Virus record (IMG/VR): IMGVR_UViG_3300042863_000825
Coordinates: 1 to 24,221 of that record
Strand: one strand, 5' to 3'
Length of the DNA: 24,221 nt
DNA from: a virus
Part shown: positions 720 through 19,836 of the stretch, in pieces
Position numbering within the stretch: the stretch's first letter is position 1
Layout of the letters: each line of letters opens with the position of its first letter
Made by a program: the position numbers and the translations under genes
The notes under the pieces: generated by a model
The model's input: only the letters and a program-made list of their open reading frames with translations
Database searches by the model: none
Told to the model about the DNA's origin: nothing

Positions 720-3326
720 TCATTTATATTGTTGATTAACCATCTCTTGATGTTTAGCATCGCTACCACTAGTTAACCCACGTAGTAACCTAACATTGTC
801 AACTGTTCGTTGATTCCTATATACTTCTTTTATTTCATAAAATGATGCATCTTTTAATACAAAAGAATAAGCATTGAATCCAGTAGGTACACTGGCTATT
901 AATGCAATATCAATAGAACCTGCCAATTCATTTGGCAATACATTTTTATTCACTGAACTTGCAGGTTGAGTTATATTGTTTTGCATTAACTCAAAACGCT
1001 GTTGCATTATTATTTCTGATAATGGATTACCTGCTTTACCTACACCACTAAAGCTAGACATTTGATATTGCGGAGTCTCAACTTCTAACTGTCTTGAATC
1101 TAACTTGGGTTGATACATTGGTACAGGTTGATTAGACGACATTGTTACATTAGCAGAACTGGATGGTATCAGTGGGTTATACGCAAACAAATTACGATTA
1201 ACTGTTATGCCGGTACCACTGTTAGTTTGTTGTTGAGTTTCAATCTCTGGTAGTACAAGTGGTTTAAGCATAACTAGTTGAGTTGACTGAGTATCTTGTT
1301 GTTGAGGTGTATATGCTTGTTGTACTTGCATTGAGTTAGCGGTAGTTTGTGAATATGGTTGAGTCTGTTCTTGCTGAGGCGGTGGTAATAATGTTACTAC
1401 GCTAGAACTTGATTGAGTTTGTACTTGTTGTGTTTCTTGCTGGGGACCTTGCACTTGTACAATAGTTGTTGATTGAGTTTGTACTTGCTGTGTGTCTTGT
1501 TGCTGTTGCACCTGAGGACCTGCTCTAGTCGTTTGTTGTACTTGTGTACTAGCTTGCACAGTTTGTTGAGACTGACTAACTTGGGTAGCAGTTTGTTGAC
1601 TTGCTTGTGTAGTTTGACTAGAGAATTGTGCGGCTGCTGTGGCACTATTAGCACTCATATCTTGATTCACACTGATTGCTAAATTACTGCTAGCCTGTGA
1701 ACTTTGCATAGAACCTTCTAATGTCTTAGCGGCACTTTGTACTGCGGCATTTTGTGTAGCTTTGTCTTTTTCTTGTGCAGATTTAAGTACACTCATTGCT
1801 AATTTGCTAGGTCCTGCACTCGGTCCTGCTTGTTGTTGTGGTGAGCTAGATGCAGTAGTTTGTGCTGGACCGCCTGCAGGTTGAGGTGATGTAGATGCAG
1901 GTCCTGCTTGTTGTTGATTAGGTTGTGATGGATTGTCTTGTGCCATACTAGGATTTTGATTATCATCTTTCATGGGTCCTGTATTTGACTGTGGTTGCCG
2001 GTGTGACTGCTGTTGCTGTTCTGGTTGAGGATTACCTTGATCCATATTACCAGTTGGAGATGACATTGGATTTATATTACCAGCTGAAGGTGTACTAGAA
2101 CCTGAGGCTGATGCAACCGTTGATCCTAATAACATATTTTTAGCAAACGCAACTGAATAACCAGAACAAGTTGTACTATGCAACGGGTTAGCCACACACG
2201 GATCTGATGTGTACATTAAACTTGCTGAAAAATTACCTATAGATGATCCAGTACCCTGAGTACCACCATAAAGCCTAACGTTACCCAATGATGTTTGGGT
2301 CAAACTAGTTGGCAACAAATATTGCCCACTTACTGATCCACTAGTACCGTCACCGGTTAATGTGTGATTTTTTGAGAATAATGATTGATTATTGCTATTA
2401 GTAAGTTGTGCCGTAACACTTGCTTGAGCAGGAATATTCATATACCAACTGCATGACCCATCTTGATTCGTAGCAGTACACCCTGACCAACTCTGTCCCA
2501 CAGTATAATCAAATCCATAGTTAAAGCCATGCACTTTGGCACCGATGCCCCCATTTTTTAATGCTGTATTAATGGCAATCATCTGATTTATTGAAGTACC
2601 CCATGCATCAGGATTTGGCAATATGTTATTACTAGTTATGATATTATTAAATCCTGTGCAAGTTGGGCTATAAGCAGGATTAGTAGCACAAGGATCGATA
2701 CGATATTTTAAACTAAAACTAACATTAAAAATCTCAGGACCATAATTTCCTGCCCAGAAGTTATTATCACGGCCTACAAATCCCACTTGTGCATTACTAT
2801 AATTTGAGGCAGTAAGTGGAGAAGCAAATGTTTCACTGAAGTTAAAATTAGTCCAGTTATATTTTCTATCAGTCTGTGCTGAATAATCATAGTTTGCTGC
2901 CAAACCGCCACCAGCATTATATAACTTAACATAAGCGGCTAGATAATCTTGTCTAGCATCATCCCAACCATTACCATTTTTAGCCATAAATCCAAAATTA
3001 AACCCACTAAGTTGTACACCGGTACCACCTGCGGCTAATGCTCGATTTATATTGATAACTTGATTTAAATCCGCGGTGCCGTAACTAAAGTTAATAATGC
3101 CACTAGAATTAATACTAGGATTAGGACCGCAATTGCCAGGCTGTCCAGCACCAAAGCATAATTGATTAACATAGACCCCGTTGTTCCACGTACTAGTAGT
3201 AGATGTAGGAGCAGTACCGTAATTTATTAAATTACCAGTAGTACTATCTACTTGACTATTACTTGAAAGCGTTATGAACGAGGATGCCAAGCAAAGCGCC
3301 AATGCCAACTTTCTTGTAAGTGTCAT
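720..3326 (-). CDS. Large secreted adhesin-like protein, duplicated N-terminal domain, Gln/Ser-rich stalk
   Basis: 868 residues. A signal peptide (MTLTRKLALALCLASSFITL) is followed by two related domains, about residues 75-228 and 229-390. Both contain NQxI.IN.AL..GG.G...GFN(F/Y)GF near the start and end in SL.Y..DPC..NP..S.TC.G(F/Y). Paired Cys (213/223 and 376/387) suggest disulfides outside the cytoplasm. Residues about 400-720 are low-complexity Gln, Ser, Thr and Pro with repeated QVQTQS-type units, like a flexible stalk. A more ordered C-terminal part follows. The ATG at 3326 has AAAAGGAAC upstream, although it lies inside the 3' end of the preceding gene. Best read as a virion fibre or decoration protein, or a secreted surface protein. 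Family not recognised. Confidence 0.85.
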   Translation of the reverse strand: MTLTRKLALALCLASSFITLSSNSQVDSTTGNLINYGTAPTSTTSTWNNGVYVNQLCFGAGQPGNCGPNPSINSSGIINFSYGTADLNQVININRALAAGGTGVQLSGFNFGFMAKNGNGWDDARQDYLAAYVKLYNAGGGLAANYDYSAQTDRKYNWTNFNFSETFASPLTASNYSNAQVGFVGRDNNFWAGNYGPEIFNVSFSLKYRIDPCATNPAYSPTCTGFNNIITSNNILPNPDAWGTSINQMIAINTALKNGGIGAKVHGFNYGFDYTVGQSWSGCTATNQDGSCSWYMNIPAQASVTAQLTNSNNQSLFSKNHTLTGDGTSGSVSGQYLLPTSLTQTSLGNVRLYGGTQGTGSSIGNFSASLMYTSDPCVANPLHSTTCSGYSVAFAKNMLLGSTVASASGSSTPSAGNINPMSSPTGNMDQGNPQPEQQQQSHRQPQSNTGPMKDDNQNPSMAQDNPSQPNQQQAGPASTSPQPAGGPAQTTASSSPQQQAGPSAGPSKLAMSVLKSAQEKDKATQNAAVQSAAKTLEGSMQSSQASSNLAISVNQDMSANSATAAAQFSSQTTQASQQTATQVSQSQQTVQASTQVQQTTRAGPQVQQQQDTQQVQTQSTTIVQVQGPQQETQQVQTQSSSSVVTLLPPPQQEQTQPYSQTTANSMQVQQAYTPQQQDTQSTQLVMLKPLVLPEIETQQQTNSGTGITVNRNLFAYNPLIPSSSANVTMSSNQPVPMYQPKLDSRQLEVETPQYQMSSFSGVGKAGNPLSEIIMQQRFELMQNNITQPASSVNKNVLPNELAGSIDIALIASVPTGFNAYSFVLKDASFYEIKEVYRNQRTVDNVRLLRGLTSGSDAKHQEMVNQQYK

Positions 3327-4827
3327 CTATTTGTTCCTTTTGAAGTTTTGGTAACTTTTCTGGATTTGCTTCCCACGCTGCCTTAGCTTGTTCGCCAATC
3401 TTACCTTCATATGGGCAAGGTGTACCTGCTGCCAACATAGCATCAAACACACGACGGTCTTGACACATAGTAGCAACTGCGGCTACCTTCATACCCATAT
3501 CATATAATGTTTTAGATAATTTTAGTCGTTCACAATTTAAATCACGTGATGTACTACCTGCACCTACACCAAAGATTTGTGTTTGTATACTACCACTAGT
3601 TCCAGTACTACACAAATCAGCATTACCACCACTCATCATTGCAGGAGCAACAGCAGTTGGTGGAGGTTGAATTACCTTTTGTGTAATCGTACTCTCGTTT
3701 TTATTAATATTAGTTACTTCACCACTATTAATGTTTTGATTGACGTTGGCATTTTGATTGACGTTGGTATTAGTACTTGAACTAGTATTATTATTGTTAT
3801 TAGTCATAGTACCATTATTGGTATTCTGATTAATGTTGGTCATCGTGCCACTGTTGATGTTATTGTTTGTGTTACTTGTTGTAGCTGTAGTATTATTGAT
3901 ATTACGGTTAGTCATGTCACCTGTGTTAACATTGTTATTAGTATTTGTACTGGTACTCGTATTAACATTGTTGTTATTGTTATTCATTGTACCATACTGA
4001 TAATTTGTATTTGTACTTGTACTAACATTGTTATTGTTGTTGGTATTTGTACTTGTGGTTTGATTAACGTTGTTATTGTTATACGTCATTGTACCACTGT
4101 TAATATTGTTATTTGTATTAACATTTGAACTTGTACTGGTGCTTGAATTGATATTACGATTAGTCATATCACCGGTGTTAACGTTATTGTTGTTATTAGT
4201 ATTGGTACTAGTTGTTGTATTAGCATTATTGTTATTGTAAGTCATTGTACCAGTATTAACGTTATTGTTAGTATTAACGTTAGTGCTTGTACTTGCTGAT
4301 GTACTATTATTATTATTGTTAAATGTCTGCGTACCACTATTAACGTTGTTGTTAGTGTTAACATTAGTGCTTGTACTTGTGCTAGCGTTGACATTGTTGT
4401 TATTATTAGTCATTGTACCAGTATTAACGTTATTGTTATTAAATGTCTGTGTACCACTATTGACATTGTTATTGTTGTTGGTATAAGTGACACTACCACT
4501 CATAACGTTGTTATTGTTATTATTGTTGGTCATTACACCATTATTTGTATTGGTATTGATGTTGGTATTAGTTGTACCACCTGTTAAGTTGGTATTATTG
4601 TTATTAGTAATAGTTCCGCTATTAACGTTGTTTGTATTAACCGTGCTAACACTATTACTAGTGCTGTTAGTATCAACCAAAGATTTACTATCATAAGTAC
4701 CTTGATTGATGATGCCTGTAGTTCCGGTAGTTGTACCACCCGATGAACTAGATGTGCCGGTCGTAGTAGTTTGTGCCAATGCACCCGTAACAAATGCAAT
4801 AGCCAATGCTATTATTGTTTTTTTCAT
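3259..4827 (-). CDS. Secreted Asn/Thr-repeat protein with Cys-containing C-terminal domain
   Basis: 522 residues. Signal peptide MKKTIIALAIAFVTGALA. Residues about 60-390 are an irregular tandem repeat built from NTNNNVNTGTMTNNNN-like units (Asn, Thr, Val, Ser, Gly only), giving a long fibrous or solenoid-like region. About residues 400-522 form a distinct domain with several Cys (ADLCSTG, LNCERLKLS, ATMCQDRRVFDAM, GTPCPYEG) and a short hydrophobic tail (about 508-519). The start has an upstream purine-rich stretch, and the AGATAAATAT motif lies about 55 bases upstream. The last 68 bases overlap the start of the adhesin-like gene in another frame. The two secreted repeat proteins probably work together, perhaps as a virion fibre or surface structure. 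Function unknown. Confidence 0.85.
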   Translation of the reverse strand: MKKTIIALAIAFVTGALAQTTTTGTSSSSGGTTTGTTGIINQGTYDSKSLVDTNSTSNSVSTVNTNNVNSGTITNNNNTNLTGGTTNTNINTNTNNGVMTNNNNNNNVMSGSVTYTNNNNNVNSGTQTFNNNNVNTGTMTNNNNNVNASTSTSTNVNTNNNVNSGTQTFNNNNNSTSASTSTNVNTNNNVNTGTMTYNNNNANTTTSTNTNNNNNVNTGDMTNRNINSSTSTSSNVNTNNNINSGTMTYNNNNVNQTTSTNTNNNNNVSTSTNTNYQYGTMNNNNNNVNTSTSTNTNNNVNTGDMTNRNINNTTATTSNTNNNINSGTMTNINQNTNNGTMTNNNNNTSSSTNTNVNQNANVNQNINSGEVTNINKNESTITQKVIQPPPTAVAPAMMSGGNADLCSTGTSGSIQTQIFGVGAGSTSRDLNCERLKLSKTLYDMGMKVAAVATMCQDRRVFDAMLAAGTPCPYEGKIGEQAKAAWEANPEKLPKLQKEQIDDTYKKVGIGALLGILVHNAFK

Positions 4828-6253: not shown

Positions 6254-6571
6254 TTGAAATCACTTTATTTAATACTACTAACTTTAGGAATATCAACATG
6301 CTCCTATTCACAAGAGCTAAAAGATACTATAGAAGCAGAACTACCCTGTTACAACACAACAGACCTATTTAAAAATCTTAGAGAAAAATATAAAGAAATG
6401 CCTCTACTAACAGGCAAGGCAACAGATATAGCTAGGTCAACTCTCAGTGTTTGGATGAACCCAACTGATAAGAATTGGACAATCGTTGCTACTACACAAG
6501 ATATTAGCTGTATAGTTGGAATGGGTACTGATATTAAATTATTTAATTATAAGACAGGAACATCAATATGA
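6254..6571 (+). CDS. Small secreted protein upstream of DD-peptidase
   Basis: 105 residues, started by TTG at 6254 behind a good AGGAG site; no in-frame ATG explains the N-terminal signal. MKSLYLILLTLGISTCSYSQ is a Sec signal sequence; the STC motif is a poor lipobox, so signal peptidase I cleavage near SYSQ is more likely. The mature part contains a core of the type VWMNPTDKNWTIV...ISCIVGMGT with two remaining Cys, a pattern seen in small periplasmic proteins of phages and marine bacteria. The stop overlaps the next start as ATGA, linking it to the D,D-peptidase homologue. Function unknown, but the coupling suggests a shared periplasmic role. Confidence 0.75.
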   Translation: MKSLYLILLTLGISTCSYSQELKDTIEAELPCYNTTDLFKNLREKYKEMPLLTGKATDIARSTLSVWMNPTDKNWTIVATTQDISCIVGMGTDIKLFNYKTGTSI

Positions 6572-7299
6572 TTAAAAAATTAATTACAGTACTGGCACTA
6601 ACAGCTTCATCTGCATACGCTACCCCATTAACTGCACAAGCTTGGATAGTTGCTGATAGTAATGGTAGAATATTTGAAGCTTCTAATATGTCTGAAATAC
6701 GTAGCATAGCTAGTATCACTAAACTAATGACAGCTATGGTTGTATTAGATAGTGGTCAATCACTTACAGAAATAATTCCAAAAAAACTCTACAACAAACA
6801 ACTAACAAGAGAAACATTAATTGATTTGGCAATCGTTAAATCAGATAACACCGCAGCCAAAATGTTATGCGATTACTATCCGGGAGGATATGATAACTGT
6901 ATCAGTGCAATGAACACTAAAGCAACGTCATTACAAATGATTAACAGTACCTTTACCGACCCTACTGGATTGTTAGCTACAAACGTTAGCACAGCACAAG
7001 ATTTAATTAAACTAGTATTTGCAGCCAGCAAGTATCCATTGATAGTAGAAGCAAGTAATATGGATGCAGTACGTTGGAGTATCAATAAGAAGAAAAATAT
7101 AGAGTTTAGAAATACTAATACACTGGTAGGACCAGATAATTCATTTCTAGTAAGCAAAACAGGATGGATTACTAAATCAGGTGGATGTATTGTTATGATG
7201 ATTAATACTGTAAATGGAATCAGGACCGTAGTCCTGTTGGGGTCAAAGAATACTAAAACTCGTATCCCAGAAGCTAAGATGCTATCTACGCTTTATTAA
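6568..7299 (+). CDS. Secreted serine D-Ala-D-Ala carboxypeptidase/endopeptidase homologue (S11, PBP7-like)
   Basis: 243 residues. Signal peptide MIKKLITVLALTASSAYA, then a penicillin-binding-protein fold with all three active-site motifs: SxxK as SITK (49-52, nucleophile Ser49), SDN (92-94) and KTG (197-199). The DPTGL segment typical of the family is also present. Such enzymes cleave D-Ala-containing peptides or cross-links of peptidoglycan in the periplasm. Length is short compared with host PBP5, closer to the catalytic domain of PBP7, with no C-terminal membrane anchor. An ATGA overlap couples it to the small secreted protein. A phage copy could loosen or remodel the wall at lysis, or alter it against superinfection. 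Confidence 0.85.
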   Translation: MIKKLITVLALTASSAYATPLTAQAWIVADSNGRIFEASNMSEIRSIASITKLMTAMVVLDSGQSLTEIIPKKLYNKQLTRETLIDLAIVKSDNTAAKMLCDYYPGGYDNCISAMNTKATSLQMINSTFTDPTGLLATNVSTAQDLIKLVFAASKYPLIVEASNMDAVRWSINKKKNIEFRNTNTLVGPDNSFLVSKTGWITKSGGCIVMMINTVNGIRTVVLLGSKNTKTRIPEAKMLSTLY

Positions 7300-7565: not shown

Positions 7566-7762
7566 TTTTTCCAAAGTATAAAGTTTATGTAATCGGGTTC
7601 TGTTTCAAAATAGAAATCATATAATCCACCATCACGACCTGCGGGTACTTGACAATCATAACCCCAATCATTGGCACAGTTTCGTTGACACCAATCAATC
7701 ACAGGTTTTAATTCTCCGTAACCAATTGTAATCTTAGTTTTGTATTGAGTATCGGGTGACAC
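7562..7762 (-). CDS. Hypothetical protein, 66 residues, GTG start
   Basis: Starts with GTG at 7762, inside the 3' end of the dCMP deaminase gene (29-base overlap), and ends in an ATGA overlap with the next gene. Contains WCQRNCANDWGYDC, a compact set of Cys and Trp residues, and a C-terminal FYFETEPDYINFILW block of the sort seen in small conserved phage proteins. The start is the weakest point: only AAGG lies upstream. Function unknown. Confidence 0.65.
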   Translation of the reverse strand: MSPDTQYKTKITIGYGELKPVIDWCQRNCANDWGYDCQVPAGRDGGLYDFYFETEPDYINFILWKK

Positions 7763-8234
7763 TTACGTTGCCTTGTTCTAAAAATTCTAATCCTTTAGTA
7801 TCTCTATATGCTTCTCTATAAAAGACATTTTTGATACCAGATTGATATATAGCTTTTGCACAATGTATGCAGGGTGCATGTGTTATGAACAATGTAGCAT
7901 CCTCGCTAGATTCAGTACTTGCGGACACCTTGGCAATTGCGTTCATTTCAGCGTGGAGTACCTCATCCTTAGTAACTAACCGATATCTACGATTACTTTC
8001 TACTGTACTATCATATTCTTCTAATGGGTATAGTTGTCCATCCCAAACATCTCCGGGCATGTATTCTTTATATTCACATTCGTTAGTCCATCCAGTTGGC
8101 ATACCGTTGTATCCTGTACCTAGAATCTTGTTGCCCTTAACGATAACAGCACCAACATTTAATCTAATAGCTGAACTTAGCTTACTAGTTAGGTCAGCTA
8201 TATCCATGTAATAGTCTATAAATTTTTGTTTCAT
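7734..8234 (-). CDS. dCMP deaminase
   Basis: 166 residues, zinc-dependent deoxycytidylate deaminase that converts dCMP to dUMP, feeding dTMP synthesis during phage DNA replication. The zinc and catalytic motifs are HAE (94-96, with Glu96 the proton shuttle) and PCIHC (121-125), plus the N-terminal VGAVIV and GTGYNGMPTG segments typical of the family. A longer insert (about 53-85) precedes HAE, as in phage T4-type enzymes. Its start overlaps the previous gene by ATGA. A MazG-like gene lies in the same operon, so the operon serves nucleotide pool control. Confidence 0.93.
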   Translation of the reverse strand: MKQKFIDYYMDIADLTSKLSSAIRLNVGAVIVKGNKILGTGYNGMPTGWTNECEYKEYMPGDVWDGQLYPLEEYDSTVESNRRYRLVTKDEVLHAEMNAIAKVSASTESSEDATLFITHAPCIHCAKAIYQSGIKNVFYREAYRDTKGLEFLEQGNVSVTRYSIQN

Positions 8235-9337: not shown

Positions 9338-9619
9338 TTATTTATTAATAGTTAAGTTAGACCACTTCTTTAGTTTTTTAAACTTATTCTTTTTAGCCGT
9401 TTCTAAACCCTCAACTGTTATACCCACATTGTTATCTGTAATCAATTCAACCATAGCCAATAGATCACCCAATTCTTCTTCGAGCATTTGGATATTAGTC
9501 ATTGGTTTATTTGGTTTCATTTGATCTGGCCCGAATCTAAAACACTTGCTAACAGCTTGTGTAACTTCGGCACATTCTTCCTGTAAGATTAAAAGAATTT
9601 CTCTTGTATCTTCGTTCAT
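9338..9619 (-). CDS. MazG-like nucleotide pyrophosphohydrolase
   Basis: 93 residues, a single all-alpha NTP-PPase domain. Metal-binding motif EExxE is at 14-18 (QEECAEVTQA) and ExxD at 49-52 (EEELGDLLAM). Such enzymes hydrolyse (d)NTPs to monophosphates and pyrophosphate, and phage versions are thought to adjust nucleotide pools. The C-terminus is a short Lys-rich helix. ATGA overlap with the upstream gene. Operon company with dCMP deaminase fits: both act on deoxynucleotide pools. The actual substrate cannot be told from sequence. Confidence 0.85.
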   Translation of the reverse strand: MNEDTREILLILQEECAEVTQAVSKCFRFGPDQMKPNKPMTNIQMLEEELGDLLAMVELITDNNVGITVEGLETAKKNKFKKLKKWSNLTINK

Positions 9620-9848: not shown

Positions 9849-10007
9849 TTAAAATCCAATCATATCGGTTAAGTATTTAAAAACAATTGCAAAATTAACT
9901 GCAAAAACAATTCCATCCATGTAATATATCCATTTAGGACTATTAGTATAATCTTTAGTTACAAGTAGGTAAGCAAAGAACAGTGTTGCAAAAACATTAA
10001 TTATCAT
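9849..10007 (-). CDS. Small two-helix membrane protein, 52 residues
   Basis: Begins MIINVFATLFFAYLLVTKDY and ends YLTDMIGF. Two hydrophobic stretches (about 3-17 and 32-44) are separated by a short polar loop containing NSPKW, suggesting a helical hairpin in the membrane. The ATG overlaps the cupin gene's stop as ATGA, with TAGGAAAC upstream, and the stop is 2 bases before the next ATG. It fills the gap exactly, so it is very probably real. A holin-like hairpin is possible, but the operon context is metabolic. Confidence 0.65.
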   Translation of the reverse strand: MIINVFATLFFAYLLVTKDYTNSPKWIYYMDGIVFAVNFAIVFKYLTDMIGF

Positions 10008-10519
10008 TGTTGTTTCCTATTTGCCTTACTCATTACATATTTTTCGTGATAGGGTTTCCAATCATTCAAGTAATGGTCATGTTTAATCCAACGATGTATA
10101 CCTTTCTTTGCTTGTACTAGAAAGCCCCATTCACGTTGTTGTTTGCCCATGAAGAACAATGTAGTAGCTGGTTGTTCACCATCTAATTCAAGCCAATGAT
10201 ATTCACCTGGACCACGCTTAATAATACTACCTGGGCCGCGCCATGTTTGAAATTCTGTAAGCATTTTGCCATCACTATCAAACACTGGTGTATGTTCCCA
10301 ATACCCACCTTTAAGGACAATAGTCATATAGCCCCAGGGATGGTCATGAAAGATAGGATCATCACTACGAACAATCTTATGTAATGTAACATTGAAGGGG
10401 AACCAACTACGATCTTTTAGAAATAAATAGTAGCGGTGCATATAATCTTCGCCTGTCCTACGATCAGGAATCAAACGATAACGACCTAACTTATTCATTA
10501 CTTTGTGAAATAAACTCAT
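10004..10519 (-). CDS. Cupin-fold protein
   Basis: 171 residues. A double-stranded beta-helix signature is visible: FHDHPWGY (57-64, His58 and His60), WEHTP (74-78) and GEYHWLEL (105-112, His108), spaced as metal ligands of a cupin. N-terminal MHRYYLFLKDRSWFPFNVTLHKI precedes it. Substrate unknown; related small cupins include dioxygenases and sugar-binding proteins. It heads a ten-gene operon under a strong extended -10 promoter and ends in an ATGA overlap. TAGGAG lies upstream of the ATG. Confidence 0.75.
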   Translation of the reverse strand: MSLFHKVMNKLGRYRLIPDRRTGEDYMHRYYLFLKDRSWFPFNVTLHKIVRSDDPIFHDHPWGYMTIVLKGGYWEHTPVFDSDGKMLTEFQTWRGPGSIIKRGPGEYHWLELDGEQPATTLFFMGKQQREWGFLVQAKKGIHRWIKHDHYLNDWKPYHEKYVMSKANRKQQ

Positions 10520-10986: not shown

Positions 10987-11835
10987 TTAGATGTCCAAAA
11001 ACTTTAACTCAAACACATCGGCTTGAGGATCAGCACCCTTGTAACCACGAGGATTACATACCACACGGGTAGTGCCAATATTATAATCAAATGGGTCATG
11101 CATGTGACCGTGTGTTACTAATACTAATTGTGGATGATCTAATATGAATTCACTCAATTCACTATGATATCCACCATTCATTATATAATGAACATTATGT
11201 TTATATCTGTCATGCGTACTCATTGCACTAGGTGCATGATGTCCTACAAATACAACTTTCTTATCCTTCATATCAGCTAACACCTGCTTCAAATAACTTA
11301 GTGTTTGCTGATGACGGTGTACAGTATGTGCAGGACGTAACTTACTATATCCATGCTCATCATTACGAATTACACGATAATCATTCATCATATCACTTAA
11401 CGCATGTAGTGTTAATGGATCACTTTTATTACAATCAGTCCACAATGTAGCACCAATAAAGGACACTTCATTGATAACCTTAATATCGTTTTCAAGGAAG
11501 TAAACATTTGGATATGTAGCACAAGCTTCACGCAAGTGATCTAAACTAGCCTTCCATCTTCCTTGATAGAATTCATGGTTACCTGCAACATAAACAACAT
11601 GAGGAAACTCATTGCTTACTCTAGTAAGGAAAGCACGGAATCGTTGTGCGGCTTTTTGTCTTACGCCCAATTCTGTATAAGATTCATATGGGCTAATTAC
11701 AGTTGGGGGATGATTATGTAAATCTTCTGCAATCATAATATCGCCGGATAGGATAAGGACCTCAGCACTCTCGGTGTTCTTAAGGTCAATATCTGAGAAT
11801 TCTAAATGGAGGTCACTGCACAATGCGATTTTCAT
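10987..11835 (-). CDS. Calcineurin-like metallophosphoesterase
   Basis: 282 residues with the full set of metal ligand motifs: SDLH (7-10), SGDI (30-33), GNHE (85-88), GHH (198-200) and GHMH (243-246). This is the two-metal phosphoesterase fold seen in nucleases, cyclic nucleotide phosphodiesterases and phosphatases; the substrate cannot be told from sequence. Last gene of the minus-strand block starting with the promoter cassettes, 5 bases after the preceding gene. No Shine-Dalgarno sequence is evident (TAGATAAAATG), so reinitiation is likely. A degenerate relative lies at 16806-17498. Confidence 0.9.
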   Translation of the reverse strand: MKIALCSDLHLEFSDIDLKNTESAEVLILSGDIMIAEDLHNHPPTVISPYESYTELGVRQKAAQRFRAFLTRVSNEFPHVVYVAGNHEFYQGRWKASLDHLREACATYPNVYFLENDIKVINEVSFIGATLWTDCNKSDPLTLHALSDMMNDYRVIRNDEHGYSKLRPAHTVHRHQQTLSYLKQVLADMKDKKVVFVGHHAPSAMSTHDRYKHNVHYIMNGGYHSELSEFILDHPQLVLVTHGHMHDPFDYNIGTTRVVCNPRGYKGADPQADVFELKFLDI

Positions 11836-11840
11836 TTTAT

Positions 11841-12083
11841 CTAACTATGTCTCAAAATAAAGAATACTTCATCTGTATTAATTTTTATTCTACTCAAAGA
11901 ACCTTTTGCATCCAATATATATTCAATATCGTAATTGTATTTGTTCTTTAGTAAATTTTTTACTAGGGGTCTAAAATCTCCCTGAATATACCTAGTATCT
12001 TTTGTCTCTTTTCCAATTAAATTACAAACAGCAATTGCAACATTTCCGTGTTTCCAAGGATCAGTCATGTCAATGTCAATCAT
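11841..12083 (-). CDS. Hypothetical protein, 80 residues
   Basis: MIDIDMTDPWKHGNVAIAVC at the start and a C-terminal region with alternating beta strands (YDIEYILDAKGSLSRIKINT). No membrane segment or motif recognised. The start overlaps the SWIM-domain gene's stop as ATGA and the next gene begins 5 bases after its stop. Function unknown. Confidence 0.65.
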   Translation of the reverse strand: MIDIDMTDPWKHGNVAIAVCNLIGKETKDTRYIQGDFRPLVKNLLKNKYNYDIEYILDAKGSLSRIKINTDEVFFILRHS

Positions 12084-12409
12084 ACTAACTCCGCAATATG
12101 TTTACATGTACCCCGATACATATATCCCGGGCATGTGCAACTTTTTTCTTCTGTGTCAATAGAATAAGTATTACCTTTACTACCGGACACTTTAATGATT
12201 GTACTCTTTTCTTTGATTGCCTTAAAAGGATTTGGCTTTGCTGTAATAAACTTACGACCACGTTTATCTATTGTGATCGGGTTTTTGAAATAGTGAGGAG
12301 TAGTAGAACCAACCTTGATGTATGCAACCATTTTGGATCCATCAAGCAAGTATGTATGATTAGCATTATTGCTATCATTCCAAACTGTTGTTTCTACTAC
12401 TGCTTCCAT
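12080..12409 (-). CDS. SWIM zinc-finger protein
   Basis: 109 residues. The C-terminal CTC(P)GYMYRGTCKH (Cys91, Cys93, Cys102, His104) fits the SWIM zinc finger, CxCx(n)CxH, a small DNA- or protein-binding module. The N-terminal about 75 residues contain basic stretches (TIDKRGRKFITAKPNPFK) that may contact nucleic acid. The protein is only the SWIM module plus this leader, far shorter than SWIM-containing helicases or transposases. It lies 1 base after the preceding gene and is coupled by ATGA to the next. Likely a small regulator or adaptor; partner unknown. Confidence 0.75.
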   Translation of the reverse strand: MEAVVETTVWNDSNNANHTYLLDGSKMVAYIKVGSTTPHYFKNPITIDKRGRKFITAKPNPFKAIKEKSTIIKVSGSKGNTYSIDTEEKSCTCPGYMYRGTCKHIAELV

Positions 12410-14118: not shown

Positions 14119-14715
14119 TTAGGACATGTTGCGTTTTTGCAACACATTATCAGCTAGTCCATACGCTACAGCCTCACTTGCACTCATAAAAAAGTCACGT
14201 TCCATATCCTTAGCAAGTTCTTCAAACGTCTTACCAGCACTATTGTGGTCAACATAGATTTGTGTTAAAGACTTCTTCATAGCCAAAATCTCTTTAACTT
14301 GAATTTCCATATCAGTAGCTTGACCACGGGCACCACCTGAGGGTTGGTGAATCATGTGCCGAGCATTGGGTAGAATACTGCGTTTGCCTTTTGCACCGGC
14401 TTGACCTAGCAAACTACCCATTGAACATGCCTGACCCATTACAATAGTTTGTACATCAGGTTTGATAAACTGCATACAATCATAGATTGCCATACCAGCT
14501 GTAACAGAGCCACCCGGACTGTTGATATAGACACTGATATCTTTATCAGAATCTTCGCTTTCCAAATATAATAGTTGAGCAACGATTAGATTTGCCATTT
14601 GGTCATGTACCTCACCTTCAAGCAAGATAACACGGTCACGTAGTAAACGACTATAAATGTCATAGCTACGTTCACCTTTACTTGTTTGTTCTAATACCAT
14701 TGGGACTAAGCTCAT
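14119..14715 (-). CDS. clpP: ATP-dependent Clp protease proteolytic subunit ClpP
   Basis: 198 residues, the usual ClpP length. Start at 14715 is fixed by AAGGAA upstream; a longer frame would run into the divergent gene. Catalytic triad Ser98 ([10 protein letters not shown]), His123 (MIHQPSGG) and Asp174 (ERDFFMS); the oxyanion/handle region [16 protein letters not shown] (64-79) and C-terminal EAVAYGLAD are intact. The N-terminus ([23 protein letters not shown]) keeps the axial loop and hydrophobic-pocket residues used for docking to ClpX/ClpA. It forms a tetradecameric serine peptidase chamber with an AAA+ unfoldase; clpX lies 4 kb away on the same strand. Promoter with -10 TATAAT at 14793-14788. 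Likely active. Confidence 0.97.
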
Positions 14716-15871: not shown

Positions 15872-16363
15872 TCAGCATTTAGCAAAAGTTTGATGCTTAA
15901 GCCAACGCTTTTGTCCATGGCCTACTTTTAATGAAATCCCATGTTTAGCTAGTCTTTCTCTATGAGCATAGAAGCTAGGACCATGACTCATTATTCTATC
16001 CTTACCTTCACGTTCACGTTTAGCTCCGTCAATATCCCATTGATATTGATGAACCATTTCATGTGCTAGAGTAGTAATTAACCATTGTTTACAGAACCAT
16101 TTATCCATGAGACGGATTTTGCAATAGGTTTTGCGATATTTAACAATTTCAAAACTGCCAAAACACATTCCCCAGTATTTCCTACAGCGGGGTGTAACCT
16201 CAATTTCAGGCATATTTAACTTATTGTTAAAGCATGCCTGATTGATTATTTTATATAGTTCTACTACCTCAGCGTTATTTGTTCGGTAGCTTAGACGTTT
16301 TTGGTAACCGATACTTGGTAGCGGTTCACGCATTAGTTTGGAAAGTTCGGATCTTTTTGTCAT
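15872..16363 (-). CDS. SprT-like zinc metalloprotease-domain protein
   Basis: 163 residues. HEMVH (101-105) plus His127 (SHGPSFYAHRERL) give the SprT zinc site, preceded by NMPEIEVTPRCRKYWGMC and ITTLA. SprT/Spartan-type proteases of this family can degrade proteins bound to DNA; small SprT-like proteins are frequent in large phages. The C-terminus (GHGQKRWLKHQTFAKC) is basic. No Shine-Dalgarno sequence precedes ATG 16363 (AATAAATACAGTATG). Convergent with the plus-strand gene that ends at 15871. Cleavage of DNA-protein crosslinks during replication is an inference from the family. Confidence 0.85.
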   Translation of the reverse strand: MTKRSELSKLMREPLPSIGYQKRLSYRTNNAEVVELYKIINQACFNNKLNMPEIEVTPRCRKYWGMCFGSFEIVKYRKTYCKIRLMDKWFCKQWLITTLAHEMVHQYQWDIDGAKREREGKDRIMSHGPSFYAHRERLAKHGISLKVGHGQKRWLKHQTFAKC

Positions 16364-16805: not shown

Positions 16806-17498
16806 ATGAAAATAGGGTTTGATGTAATCAGCGACTTGAATTTGCTTCCCGGCGAAGTTTTCGATTGGGAAGGTAAAACAACAAGTTTATATTGTATTAT
16901 AGCAGGTAACATCAGCAGTGATTTACGTACTATACATCAAACCCTATTACATTTATCACATGTTTATCAAGGTGTATTCTATATTGCCGGTACATTAGAA
17001 TATGACGGGACACATAATATTAAATCCCGAACAGGTGACCTTTTTAATCTATGTAGGTCTATACGAAATGTAGCGTACTTACATAATCATGTTGTAATTT
17101 TAGATGGTGTTGCTATTTTAGGGACAAATGGATGGTATAGTACAGACCTAAATCACTCTGTATTACAGCCCGAAGAAATAGATAATGAGCGGTATGATGA
17201 TATCGGTTATTTGGGAAATACTATAGAAAAATTACAGTTACATTTAGATGTAAAAAAAATATTAATAGTCAGTCATTCGCCACCTGGACATGAACTCTTG
17301 TTCGGAGAAGAGACTGATGATATATATACAATACCTCCACTTAAATTAAGTTTAATAAAAGACTTGGAAGGTAAGGTATGTACTTGGATTTACGGTAGTT
17401 ATAATAAAACTGTTGATGTAGTATTAGATGAAATCAACTATATTAACAATAGTTATTATAAAAAAAATCCTTATTGGGCCAAACGAATAGAAGTTTAG
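16806..17498 (+). CDS. Degenerate metallophosphoesterase homologue (likely pseudoenzyme)
   Basis: 230 residues. Its order of segments follows the intact phosphoesterase at 10987-11835: ISDLN (8-12) for SDLH, AGNIS (33-37) for SGDI, AGTLEY (61-66) for AGNHEF, VSHSPPG (155-161) for VGHHAPS, and YGSYN (196-200) for HGHMH. Only Asp10 and His157 of the metal ligands survive, so catalysis as a phosphoesterase is unlikely. The frame is fully open with ordinary codon use, so the protein is probably still made, perhaps as a binding or regulatory subunit. No Shine-Dalgarno sequence; 11 bases after the previous gene. Its stop overlaps the clpS stop on the other strand. Confidence 0.8.
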   Translation: MKIGFDVISDLNLLPGEVFDWEGKTTSLYCIIAGNISSDLRTIHQTLLHLSHVYQGVFYIAGTLEYDGTHNIKSRTGDLFNLCRSIRNVAYLHNHVVILDGVAILGTNGWYSTDLNHSVLQPEEIDNERYDDIGYLGNTIEKLQLHLDVKKILIVSHSPPGHELLFGEETDDIYTIPPLKLSLIKDLEGKVCTWIYGSYNKTVDVVLDEINYINNSYYKKNPYWAKRIEV

Positions 17499-17803
17499 TT
17501 TGTTTCAGACTCTACTTTAACTTGTAGGGGATAGCCTTGACTACGTGCCGATACAGTAACTTCAATACCTTTCTGTTCTGCAATCTCATACGGCAATACA
17601 GCAACAACTGCACTACCCTGACTGTGAATACTTTCAGTAATATGAGCCGCAGTGTCATCAGTATAATTAAAATATTCAATTAAACTTCCCACAACAAACT
17701 CCATACTTGTTACTTCGTCATTAAGATAAATGATTTTAAACAAGGGTGGTTCAGCAAGATTAAGGTTGGGTTTGATTGTGACTTTTGTTTCTGTTTTAGA
17801 CAT
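17495..17803 (-). CDS. clpS: ClpS-like adaptor (N-degron recognition)
   Basis: 102 residues. ClpS fold signature: PPLFKIIYLNDEVTSMEFVVGSL (19-41), IHSQGSAVVAVLPYEIAEQKG (59-79) and ARSQGYPLQVKVE (87-99). Of the E. coli ClpS residues lining the N-end pocket, the LND (27-29), Met34, Glu35 and His60 are kept; the second Asp is Glu30 and the Pro is Ser33. An unstructured N-terminus of about 18 residues, needed in the family to work with ClpA, is present. ClpS delivers proteins with bulky N-terminal residues to ClpAP. No clpA gene is in the window, so the partner is probably host ClpA. No clear ribosome binding site; a stable hairpin lies just upstream. Confidence 0.9.
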   Translation of the reverse strand: MSKTETKVTIKPNLNLAEPPLFKIIYLNDEVTSMEFVVGSLIEYFNYTDDTAAHITESIHSQGSAVVAVLPYEIAEQKGIEVTVSARSQGYPLQVKVESETN

Positions 17804-17865: not shown

Positions 17866-18309
17866 TTACTTAGTGTAACTAATAGCAATAGCTTTTGGCT
17901 TCTTTTCTTCAGGAACAATTCGTTCCAGATTGATAGTTAAGATGCCATCTTTCATTATTGCACCGACAACTTCCACATGTTCAGCAATTGTAAACTCACG
18001 GATAAATCCACGGTCACTAATACCTTTGTGTAAGTACTCCATCGCAGTATCTTCTACCGCTTTATCACCAGTAATAGTTAATACACGGTTGTCTAGTTTG
18101 ATACTGATTTCACCCTCAGCAAAACCGGCACAAGCTACTTCAATATTGAAGGTATCTTCTGTTAGTTTTACTACATTATAAGGGGGATAGTTTGAATGTC
18201 CTTGTTGAGCATTCATTCTCATTAACTCATCAAACATGTTATCGAAGCCGATACCAAATTTGTGAATTGATGGAATGTCCAAGGAACGAAGGGTTAAAGT
18301 TTTTGTCAT
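17866..18309 (-). CDS. Small heat-shock protein, Hsp20 family (IbpA-like)
   Basis: 147 residues. Residues 41-130 form the alpha-crystallin domain: YPPYNVVKLTEDTFNIEVAC, AGF, the RGFIREFTIAEHVEVVGA block and GILTINLER. A C-terminal IAI (141-143) matches the IxI motif used for oligomer assembly, and VPEEKKP precedes it as in IbpA. It holds unfolding proteins in soluble form without ATP. AGGAG lies before the ATG. The leader carries a hairpin at its 5' end. Company with ClpP, ClpX and ClpS suggests a joint role in phage protein quality control. Related phage-encoded Hsp20 proteins are known in marine T4-like phages. Confidence 0.94.
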   Translation of the reverse strand: MTKTLTLRSLDIPSIHKFGIGFDNMFDELMRMNAQQGHSNYPPYNVVKLTEDTFNIEVACAGFAEGEISIKLDNRVLTITGDKAVEDTAMEYLHKGISDRGFIREFTIAEHVEVVGAIMKDGILTINLERIVPEEKKPKAIAISYTK

Positions 18310-18415: not shown

Positions 18416-18634
18416 TCAGAAGTCTTTTTTGGGAAGACTTTGGTCACGCAAGAACTTGTTCCAACGTCTTTTAGCCTGACTTTTCGCTAGTTTACGTTTC
18501 ACGGTGGGTTTCACAAACTCTTGACGATCACGTACCTCTTGTAAGGTACCGTAGTCTGTTATCATCTTTTTGAATTTGCGTAATGCCTTTTCGGTATTAC
18601 CATCATTAACTAAAACTTTGCGTCCTCTAATCAT
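18416..18634 (-). CDS. Ribosomal protein bS21 homologue
   Basis: 72 residues, matching bS21 in length and layout: VLVNDGNTEKALRKFKKMI (8-26), LQEVRDRQEFVKPTVKRK (31-48) and a basic tail AKSQAKRRWNKFLR. bS21 sits near the 3' end of 16S rRNA in the 30S subunit and influences start-site recognition; phage copies are known and may reprogram host ribosomes. The first codon overlaps the clpX stop as ATGA, so it is translated together with ClpX. An AGATAAATAT motif inside the clpX 3' end may give it an additional late promoter. Confidence 0.9.
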   Translation of the reverse strand: MIRGRKVLVNDGNTEKALRKFKKMITDYGTLQEVRDRQEFVKPTVKRKLAKSQAKRRWNKFLRDQSLPKKDF

Positions 18635-19836
18635 ATTGCGGCTTTTGGTTGTAAAATCTGCTCCTGATTAATATTTATCTTTTTAATGTTATTTTCACGG
18701 TACTTCTTAGTGTTATACATATGAGGCATTAAAACCTTCTCAATCTCAGTATGTAAACCACGTGCACCTGTCTTTAATTTCATTGTGTTTTCAGCTAGTT
18801 GTGAGATAGCATCTTCTGTAAAATCTAACTCAATATCATCTAAACTAAGCAAATACTTATATTGGTCAATATAGTTGTTCTTTACCTTAGTCAGAACTTT
18901 AACCATTTCTTCTTTAGTCAAATTCTCTACACTAACTGTTGTAGTGAATCGACCAATAAATTCAGGAATCATTCCGAATCGTGTTAAATCATCAGGGCTG
19001 ACCATAGACAAGTCACCCTCTTTACGTGCATCTTTAATATCAGCCCCAAAGCCAATACTTGTGCCGTTCAAACGATTGTTAACAATATCTTTTAATCCAA
19101 CAAATGCACCACCGGCAATGAATAAGATATTCTTAGTATTAACTTCTAGCATATCACCACCGGGATGTTTACGTCCGCCACCTGCTGGGATACGACATGT
19201 TGTTCCTTCAACCATCTTTAATAATGCTTGCTGAACACCCTCACCTGATACGTCACGTGTAATACTTGCACCTTCACTTTTACGGGCAATCTTGTCAATC
19301 TCATCTACAAAGACAATACCACGTTCTGCTAGTTTAACATCACCACCGGCAGCATTTAATAACATGCTAATCATTGATTCAACATCATCACCTACATATC
19401 CTGCTTCAGTTAAACTGGTAGCATCAGCTACAATAAAGGGCACTTCTAAATATTTGGCTACAGTTTTTGCTAATAGTGTTTTACCACTACCAGTTGGACC
19501 AATCAATAAGACGTTACCCTTTTGTATTTCTAAATCTTTTGGTGGGTTATTAATACGTTTATAATGATTAGCAATAGCTACGCTAAGAACCATTTTGGCA
19601 TTAGTTTGACCAATAATATGCTGGTCTAAGAACTCTTTGATAGTTTCTGGATCAAATCTAATATAATCCTTTTCAATCTTTTCTTCCTCAAGATTTTTAT
19701 CATCGTGCATTAATTGAGTGCATAATTCAATGCACTCACTACATATAGCTACATCTTCTCCCACAATGAGTTTATTTACTACATCTTTATGATTACCGCA
19801 AAATGAGCAGTGGCTTAATTTTATTTCTGTTGACAT
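18631..19836 (-). CDS. clpX: ATP-dependent Clp protease ATP-binding subunit ClpX
   Basis: 401 residues, near full length for ClpX (E. coli 424). N-terminal zinc-binding domain with Cys10, Cys13, Cys32 and Cys35. AAA+ motifs: Walker A GPTGSGKT (113-120), pore loop GYVGD (146-150), Walker B GIVFVDEID (173-181), RKH loop (222-224), arginine finger in EFIGRF (292-297), sensor-2 GARG (357-360). The IGF loop (261-263), which docks to ClpP, is intact. It unfolds tagged or selected proteins and feeds them to ClpP. Upstream are two lipoprotein genes in the same direction; downstream bS21 overlaps by ATGA. No clear ribosome binding site precedes the ATG. Confidence 0.97.
   Translation of the reverse strand: MSTEIKLSHCSFCGNHKDVVNKLIVGEDVAICSECIELCTQLMHDDKNLEEEKIEKDYIRFDPETIKEFLDQHIIGQTNAKMVLSVAIANHYKRINNPPKDLEIQKGNVLLIGPTGSGKTLLAKTVAKYLEVPFIVADATSLTEAGYVGDDVESMISMLLNAAGGDVKLAERGIVFVDEIDKIARKSEGASITRDVSGEGVQQALLKMVEGTTCRIPAGGGRKHPGGDMLEVNTKNILFIAGGAFVGLKDIVNNRLNGTSIGFGADIKDARKEGDLSMVSPDDLTRFGMIPEFIGRFTTTVSVENLTKEEMVKVLTKVKNNYIDQYKYLLSLDDIELDFTEDAISQLAENTMKLKTGARGLHTEIEKVLMPHMYNTKKYRENNIKKININQEQILQPKAAI
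18671..18680 (-). promoter_or_regulatory. Late-promoter-like motif inside clpX, upstream of bS21
   Basis: Minus strand AGATAAATAT, identical to the motifs at 4882-4925 and 5286-5295, 36 bases before the bS21 ATG and inside clpX codons near the C-terminus. The distance to the start matches those of the structural genes. Could uncouple late bS21 synthesis from ClpX. Confidence 0.4.

Follow-up and report, generated by a model that had tools for sequence, protein, structure and literature searches.

The window analysed here, a 24,221-bp fragment of an uncultured jumbo-phage-like virus record, encodes a genuine ClpS protein at positions 17495–17803. Judging from its sequence, a model of its fold and the gene set of its relatives, we consider it probable, at roughly two chances in three, that this protein is a working N-degron adaptor of a jumbo phage, most likely serving a phage-encoded ClpAP, and that ClpX is not its partner. 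An earlier sequence-only reading of the same DNA had described a viral ClpS without ClpA. The ClpS homologue is borne out by its open reading frame, its Pfam score and its modelled fold; the missing ClpA is most likely explained by the shortness of the fragment.

The clpS gene and its neighbours

The clpS open reading frame starts with ATG and has exactly the limits given in Table 1. Residues 1–20 of the product comprise an N-terminal extension and an EPP junction, and residues 21–100 form the core. The window ClpP is closer to cellular ClpP than to head-maturation proteases, and from its sequence (23 protein letters not shown) and our knowledge of the family we take a Ser-His-Asp triad to be readable in it. 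The statement that only ClpX is encoded here is correct insofar as ClpX is the sole Clp unfoldase within the 24 kb, but the window is a fragment, and ClpP is encoded in it as well.

Table 1. Features of the window
Feature	Position	Strand	Product	Evidence
clpS	17495–17803	–	102 aa, ClpS-family N-degron adaptor	ORF, Pfam, NCBIfam, model
clpP	14119–14715	–	198 aa, full-length ClpP peptidase	NF001368, 313 bits, over cut-off
clpX	18631–19836	–	401 aa, C4 zinc finger and AAA module, IGF (ClpP-docking) loop	NF003745, 522.6 bits, over cut-off
hsp20	17866–18309	–	147 aa, Hsp20/IbpA-like small heat-shock protein, adjoins clpS	profile matches
bS21	18416–18634	–	72 aa, ribosomal protein bS21 homologue, between hsp20 and clpX	profile matches
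SprT-like	15872–16363		SprT-like metallopeptidase, near clpP and clpS	
Carboxypeptidase	6568–7299		D-alanyl-D-alanine carboxypeptidase	PF00768
dCMP deaminase	7734–8234		dCMP deaminase	
mazG	9338–9619		MazG	
Dioxygenase-like	10004–10519		cysteine-dioxygenase-like protein	
Phosphoesterase	10987–11835		metallophosphoesterase	
SWIM	12080–12409		SWIM zinc finger protein	
Low-complexity ORF	3259–4827		large, signal-peptide-like start	
Low-complexity ORF	720–3326		large, signal-peptide-like start	

The two low-complexity reading frames overlap by 68 bases; one is Asn/Thr-rich, with TNNNNVN repeats, and the other is Gln/Ser-rich. No tRNA was found in the 24,221-bp window, and a near-identity search among isolated phages gave no match to it. 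Near-identical environmental contigs were found (L002–L005, with ClpS 99–100% identical), and at least 584 viral contigs were confirmed to encode relatives of the window ClpS.

Identity and fold of the ClpS protein

The window protein scored 79.7 bits against the Pfam ClpS family (PF02617), well above the cut-off of 23. Nine NCBIfam ClpS models also matched, all below their equivalog cut-offs (the best at 70.4 bits against 149), indicating that the protein belongs to a divergent branch. Sequences of solved ClpS structures matched it with E values down to 1.3e-13.

A structural model was built with AlphaFold2 on 46 phage ClpS sequences. The best of five models, the only one to reach this value, had a mean pLDDT of 76.5, with 82–88 in the core and 47–60 in the N-terminal tail. 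Its best Foldseek match was Caulobacter ClpS (E 1.6e-9), and it superposed on the Caulobacter and E. coli proteins with Z scores of about 17 (best 17.4, rmsd 0.6 Å over 80 residues, to Caulobacter ClpS). Thus the structure prediction proposed earlier as a check returned the ClpS alpha/beta fold. The disordered N-terminal extension noted at that stage was also recovered: the first 18–20 residues are of low confidence, as expected of disorder, and are followed by the junction prolines. The EPP junction is invariant among 75 distinct ClpS sequences of the clade, in line with the tandem prolines typical of ClpS junctions (PMC9663308).

When 84,980 species genomes were scanned with the window ClpS, a single relative (66% identity) was found, and the scan thus pointed to no close bacterial donor lineage. 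This sole relative lies on a contig (L169) binned as an actinobacterial MAG; it is possibly a phage contig within the bin.

Conservation of the N-degron pocket

The residues of the N-degron pocket have well-known individual roles, and equivalents of all of them (E. coli N34, D35, T38, M40, V43, H66 and L99) are present in the window protein. L27-N28-D29, M34, E35 and H60 align with E. coli V33-N34-D35, M40, E41 and H66, so that LND, Met34, Glu35 and His60, named earlier as pocket residues, are all present and in the order given. Among the 75 clade sequences N28, D29, T32, V37, H60 and L93 are invariant, as are the equivalents of E. coli F42 and G69; 70 of the sequences retain M34, and 59 retain E35. 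Also conserved in the clade are E73, E76 and K78, which correspond to E. coli E79, E82 and K84, and we take E79 and K84 to be putative ClpA-contact residues.

Three changes from E. coli at or near the pocket are considered here. The sequence-only reading had suggested that Asp-to-Glu and Pro-to-Ser changes next to the pocket could shift specificity. Both changes are real (E30 at the position of Asp36, S33 at that of Pro39), but they differ in meaning. At the Pro39 position, 60 of the 75 sequences have Ser and the other 15 have Thr, so the loss of proline is fixed in the clade. The Asp36 position is Glu in 26, Asp in 24 and Asn in 24; as these occur in about equal thirds, the Asp-to-Glu change is drift within the clade rather than a clade signature. 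In E. coli, D36 and E41 lie beside the pocket and make acidic residues after the degron unfavourable (PMC12258705), and both sites are acidic in the window ClpS. The third change had been overlooked and is more notable than either of these: the position of E. coli Met62, which lines the pocket in ClpS structures, is T56 in the window, and Thr (74/75) or Ser (1/75) in the clade. Thr at the Met62 position together with Ser or Thr at the Pro39 position could change or weaken binding.

These clade-wide substitutions would also fit a ClpS retained in some other role, such as that of a decoy or a chaperone-like cofactor, with little N-degron binding. Even the pocket histidine is gone from the ClpS proteins of Vibrio phage 2.275 (L172) and Agrobacterium phage Atu_ph07 (L178), where Asp and Glu respectively are found, yet both phages encode ClpA. 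The invariance of N28, D29, T32, V37, H60 and L93 in 75 relatives argues against this explanation, which we regard as improbable. The protein is a ClpS of the N-degron type in which both the pocket scaffold and the delivery tail are intact, and a role in N-degron proteolysis is its natural reading. The N-degron pathway role proposed earlier thus retains its basis in scaffold and tail, and loses the absence of ClpA that had been attached to it.

ClpX, ClpP and Aat in related phages

ClpX was found in 49 of 50 relatives, and ClpP likewise in 49 of 50. In nearly all relatives, and in Pseudomonas jumbo phage PA5oct, clpX and clpS lie in one conserved block, which could suggest that ClpS has switched partner and serves the phage ClpX encoded close by. 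Since bS21 and Hsp20 belong to this block as well, however, closeness is not specific; the N-domain of ClpX is the usual C4 zinc finger, unrelated to Clp_N; and no sequence change in ClpS points to ClpX docking. With ClpA encoded elsewhere in the relatives, the earlier suggestion that ClpS evolved to serve phage ClpX becomes unnecessary. It has no positive evidence in its favour, and we consider it very improbable.

No aat-like gene, proposed previously as a target for searching, turned up in any of the 50 relatives' records searched. The phage thus appears to be without the L/F-transferase Aat, in which case its N-degrons would have to be supplied by the host enzyme or by endoproteolysis.

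ClpA is encoded far from clpS in related phages

The same 50 records were searched for the Clp_N domain of ClpA. Open frames of about 750–770 aa bearing this domain were found in 16, located 52–72 kb upstream of clpS or, in one subgroup, 36 kb downstream. G002 (116 kb) and G003 (349 kb), the long relatives nearest to the window, are collinear with it at 85–86% nucleotide identity over about 15 kb, and each encodes a full-length ClpA of 758 aa on the same strand as clpS, 59.6 and 59.7 kb upstream respectively. ClpA was present in 10/10 records in which the sequence upstream of clpS exceeds 100 kb, and in 0/22 with short flanks on both sides. Three records with 67–71 kb upstream of clpS were without ClpA, which counts against this reading, although the distance between the two genes can reach 72 kb. 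Only 6.4 kb of sequence lies upstream of clpS in the window. With clpA 52–72 kb upstream or 36 kb downstream in the relatives, a 24-kb window could therefore not have shown it.

The relatives' ClpA proteins that were tested matched TIGR02639 best, at 776–795 bits; because these scores are below the cut-off of 993, the phage protein is a divergent ClpA. In G002 and G003 (795 bits) it has an N-domain, two AAA modules, pore loops with KYR and GYVG motifs and an IGF ClpP-docking loop; among solved structures E. coli ClpA comes closest, with an alignment spanning residues 5–738. A separate scan of viral contigs yielded 332 ClpA relatives, some of which share samples with close ClpS contigs; sample 3300027969 contains one contig 99% identical in ClpS and another with a ClpA of the clade.

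Full-length ClpA homologues were also found in four of the four ClpS-encoding jumbo phage isolates examined (Phosso, Vibrio 2.275, PA5oct and Atu_ph07). An apparent lack of ClpA in Phosso with the Clp_N model was rejected, as the phage has a full-length homologue at 42% identity. The best match in the phage collection, 'Acinetobacter phage MD-2021a' (L170, CAKLQF020000008.1), was dropped as phage evidence; its record resembles a bacterial chromosome and carries argC, clpS and clpA side by side. Contig G034 (IMGVR_UViG_3300027749_002876, 524,565 bp; L107, L113, L202 and L216) contains two copies each of clpS, clpX, clpP and clpA, and represents either a joined genome pair or a large duplication.

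A ClpS without ClpA is thus not borne out by the relatives. A clpA gene elsewhere in the genome had been named beforehand as counting against that idea; it is present in the closest sequenced relatives and in the isolated jumbo phages, and from the relatives we infer it for the window's own phage.

This gene content also bears on the proposal, published for jumbo-phage ClpS by Iyer et al. 2021 (PMC7824862), that the adaptor mainly loads host ClpAP, steering it towards N-degron substrates or away from other work. Bacterial ClpS does redirect ClpAP and inhibits ssrA-type degradation (PMC9663308), and the putative ClpA-contact residues of phage ClpS resemble the bacterial ones. With their own ClpA and ClpP, however, the close relatives and all four isolated phages would not need the host unfoldase, and the host may be without ClpA. 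As the main function, host loading therefore seems unlikely to us; redirection of host ClpAP in addition to phage ClpAP is possible.

Proposed mechanism and comparison with known systems

In the mechanism that we favour, service to phage ClpAP, the ClpS core would hold the N-terminal residue of a substrate (Leu, Phe, Tyr or Trp type) and dock on the N-domain of ClpA. The flexible N-terminal extension would enter the ClpA channel, and ClpA would take over the substrate and unfold it into ClpP, other ClpA substrates being disfavoured meanwhile. ClpS and ClpP would be those of the window and ClpA the phage's own, predicted from close relatives to lie about 60 kb upstream. ClpX would be another unfoldase working with this ClpP, not a partner of ClpS. 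Substrates would acquire their N-degrons through host Aat or endoproteolytic cuts, with the phage apparently lacking Aat.

The window ClpS is 36–40% identical to bacterial ClpS (E. coli, Caulobacter; PDB 3o2b, 3dnj). It shares their fold, the N-D-x-x-T-x-M scaffold, the His66 and Leu99 equivalents and a disordered extension with junction prolines. It differs in having Thr for Met62, Ser for Pro39 and Ile for Val65, and a shorter extension (about 20 residues), and its gene is not beside clpA. In phage PA5oct, clpX, bS21, hsp20 and clpS follow one another on one strand as they do here, and other parts of the genome encode ClpP and a ClpA homologue; its ClpS is only 32% identical to the window protein and has Met at the Met62 position. 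Met is also kept there in Phosso, whereas Vibrio phage 2.275 has Thr, as in the window. Atu_ph07 likewise encodes its own ClpS, ClpA, ClpX and ClpP, but in its ClpS the pocket Asn and His are replaced by D and E, and ClpB is reported in addition.

Phage ClpS is already known (Iyer 2021, PMC7824862), as is the full phage set of ClpX, ClpA, ClpB, ClpP and ClpS, described in 2018 for Atu_ph07 (PMC6102473). The pocket change seen across the clade may be new, as may the regularity with which ClpS is paired with ClpA, ClpP and ClpX among these very common uncultured phages. A 24-kb fragment can produce a false 'missing partner'. Earlier discussion cast phage ClpS as hijacking host ClpAP; here it is nearly always accompanied by phage ClpP and ClpX, and by ClpA wherever the contig is long enough, which points to a phage protease that is complete in itself and has a specificity testable with peptides. 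As a tentative suggestion, on which we would not bet, a widespread clade of aquatic jumbo phages may carry such an N-degron protease, with its own ClpS, ClpA and ClpP and without Aat, in which the pocket, altered by Thr in place of Met62 and Ser/Thr in place of Pro39, would recognise different N-terminal residues and so determine which proteins of the host or the phage are degraded in the course of infection.
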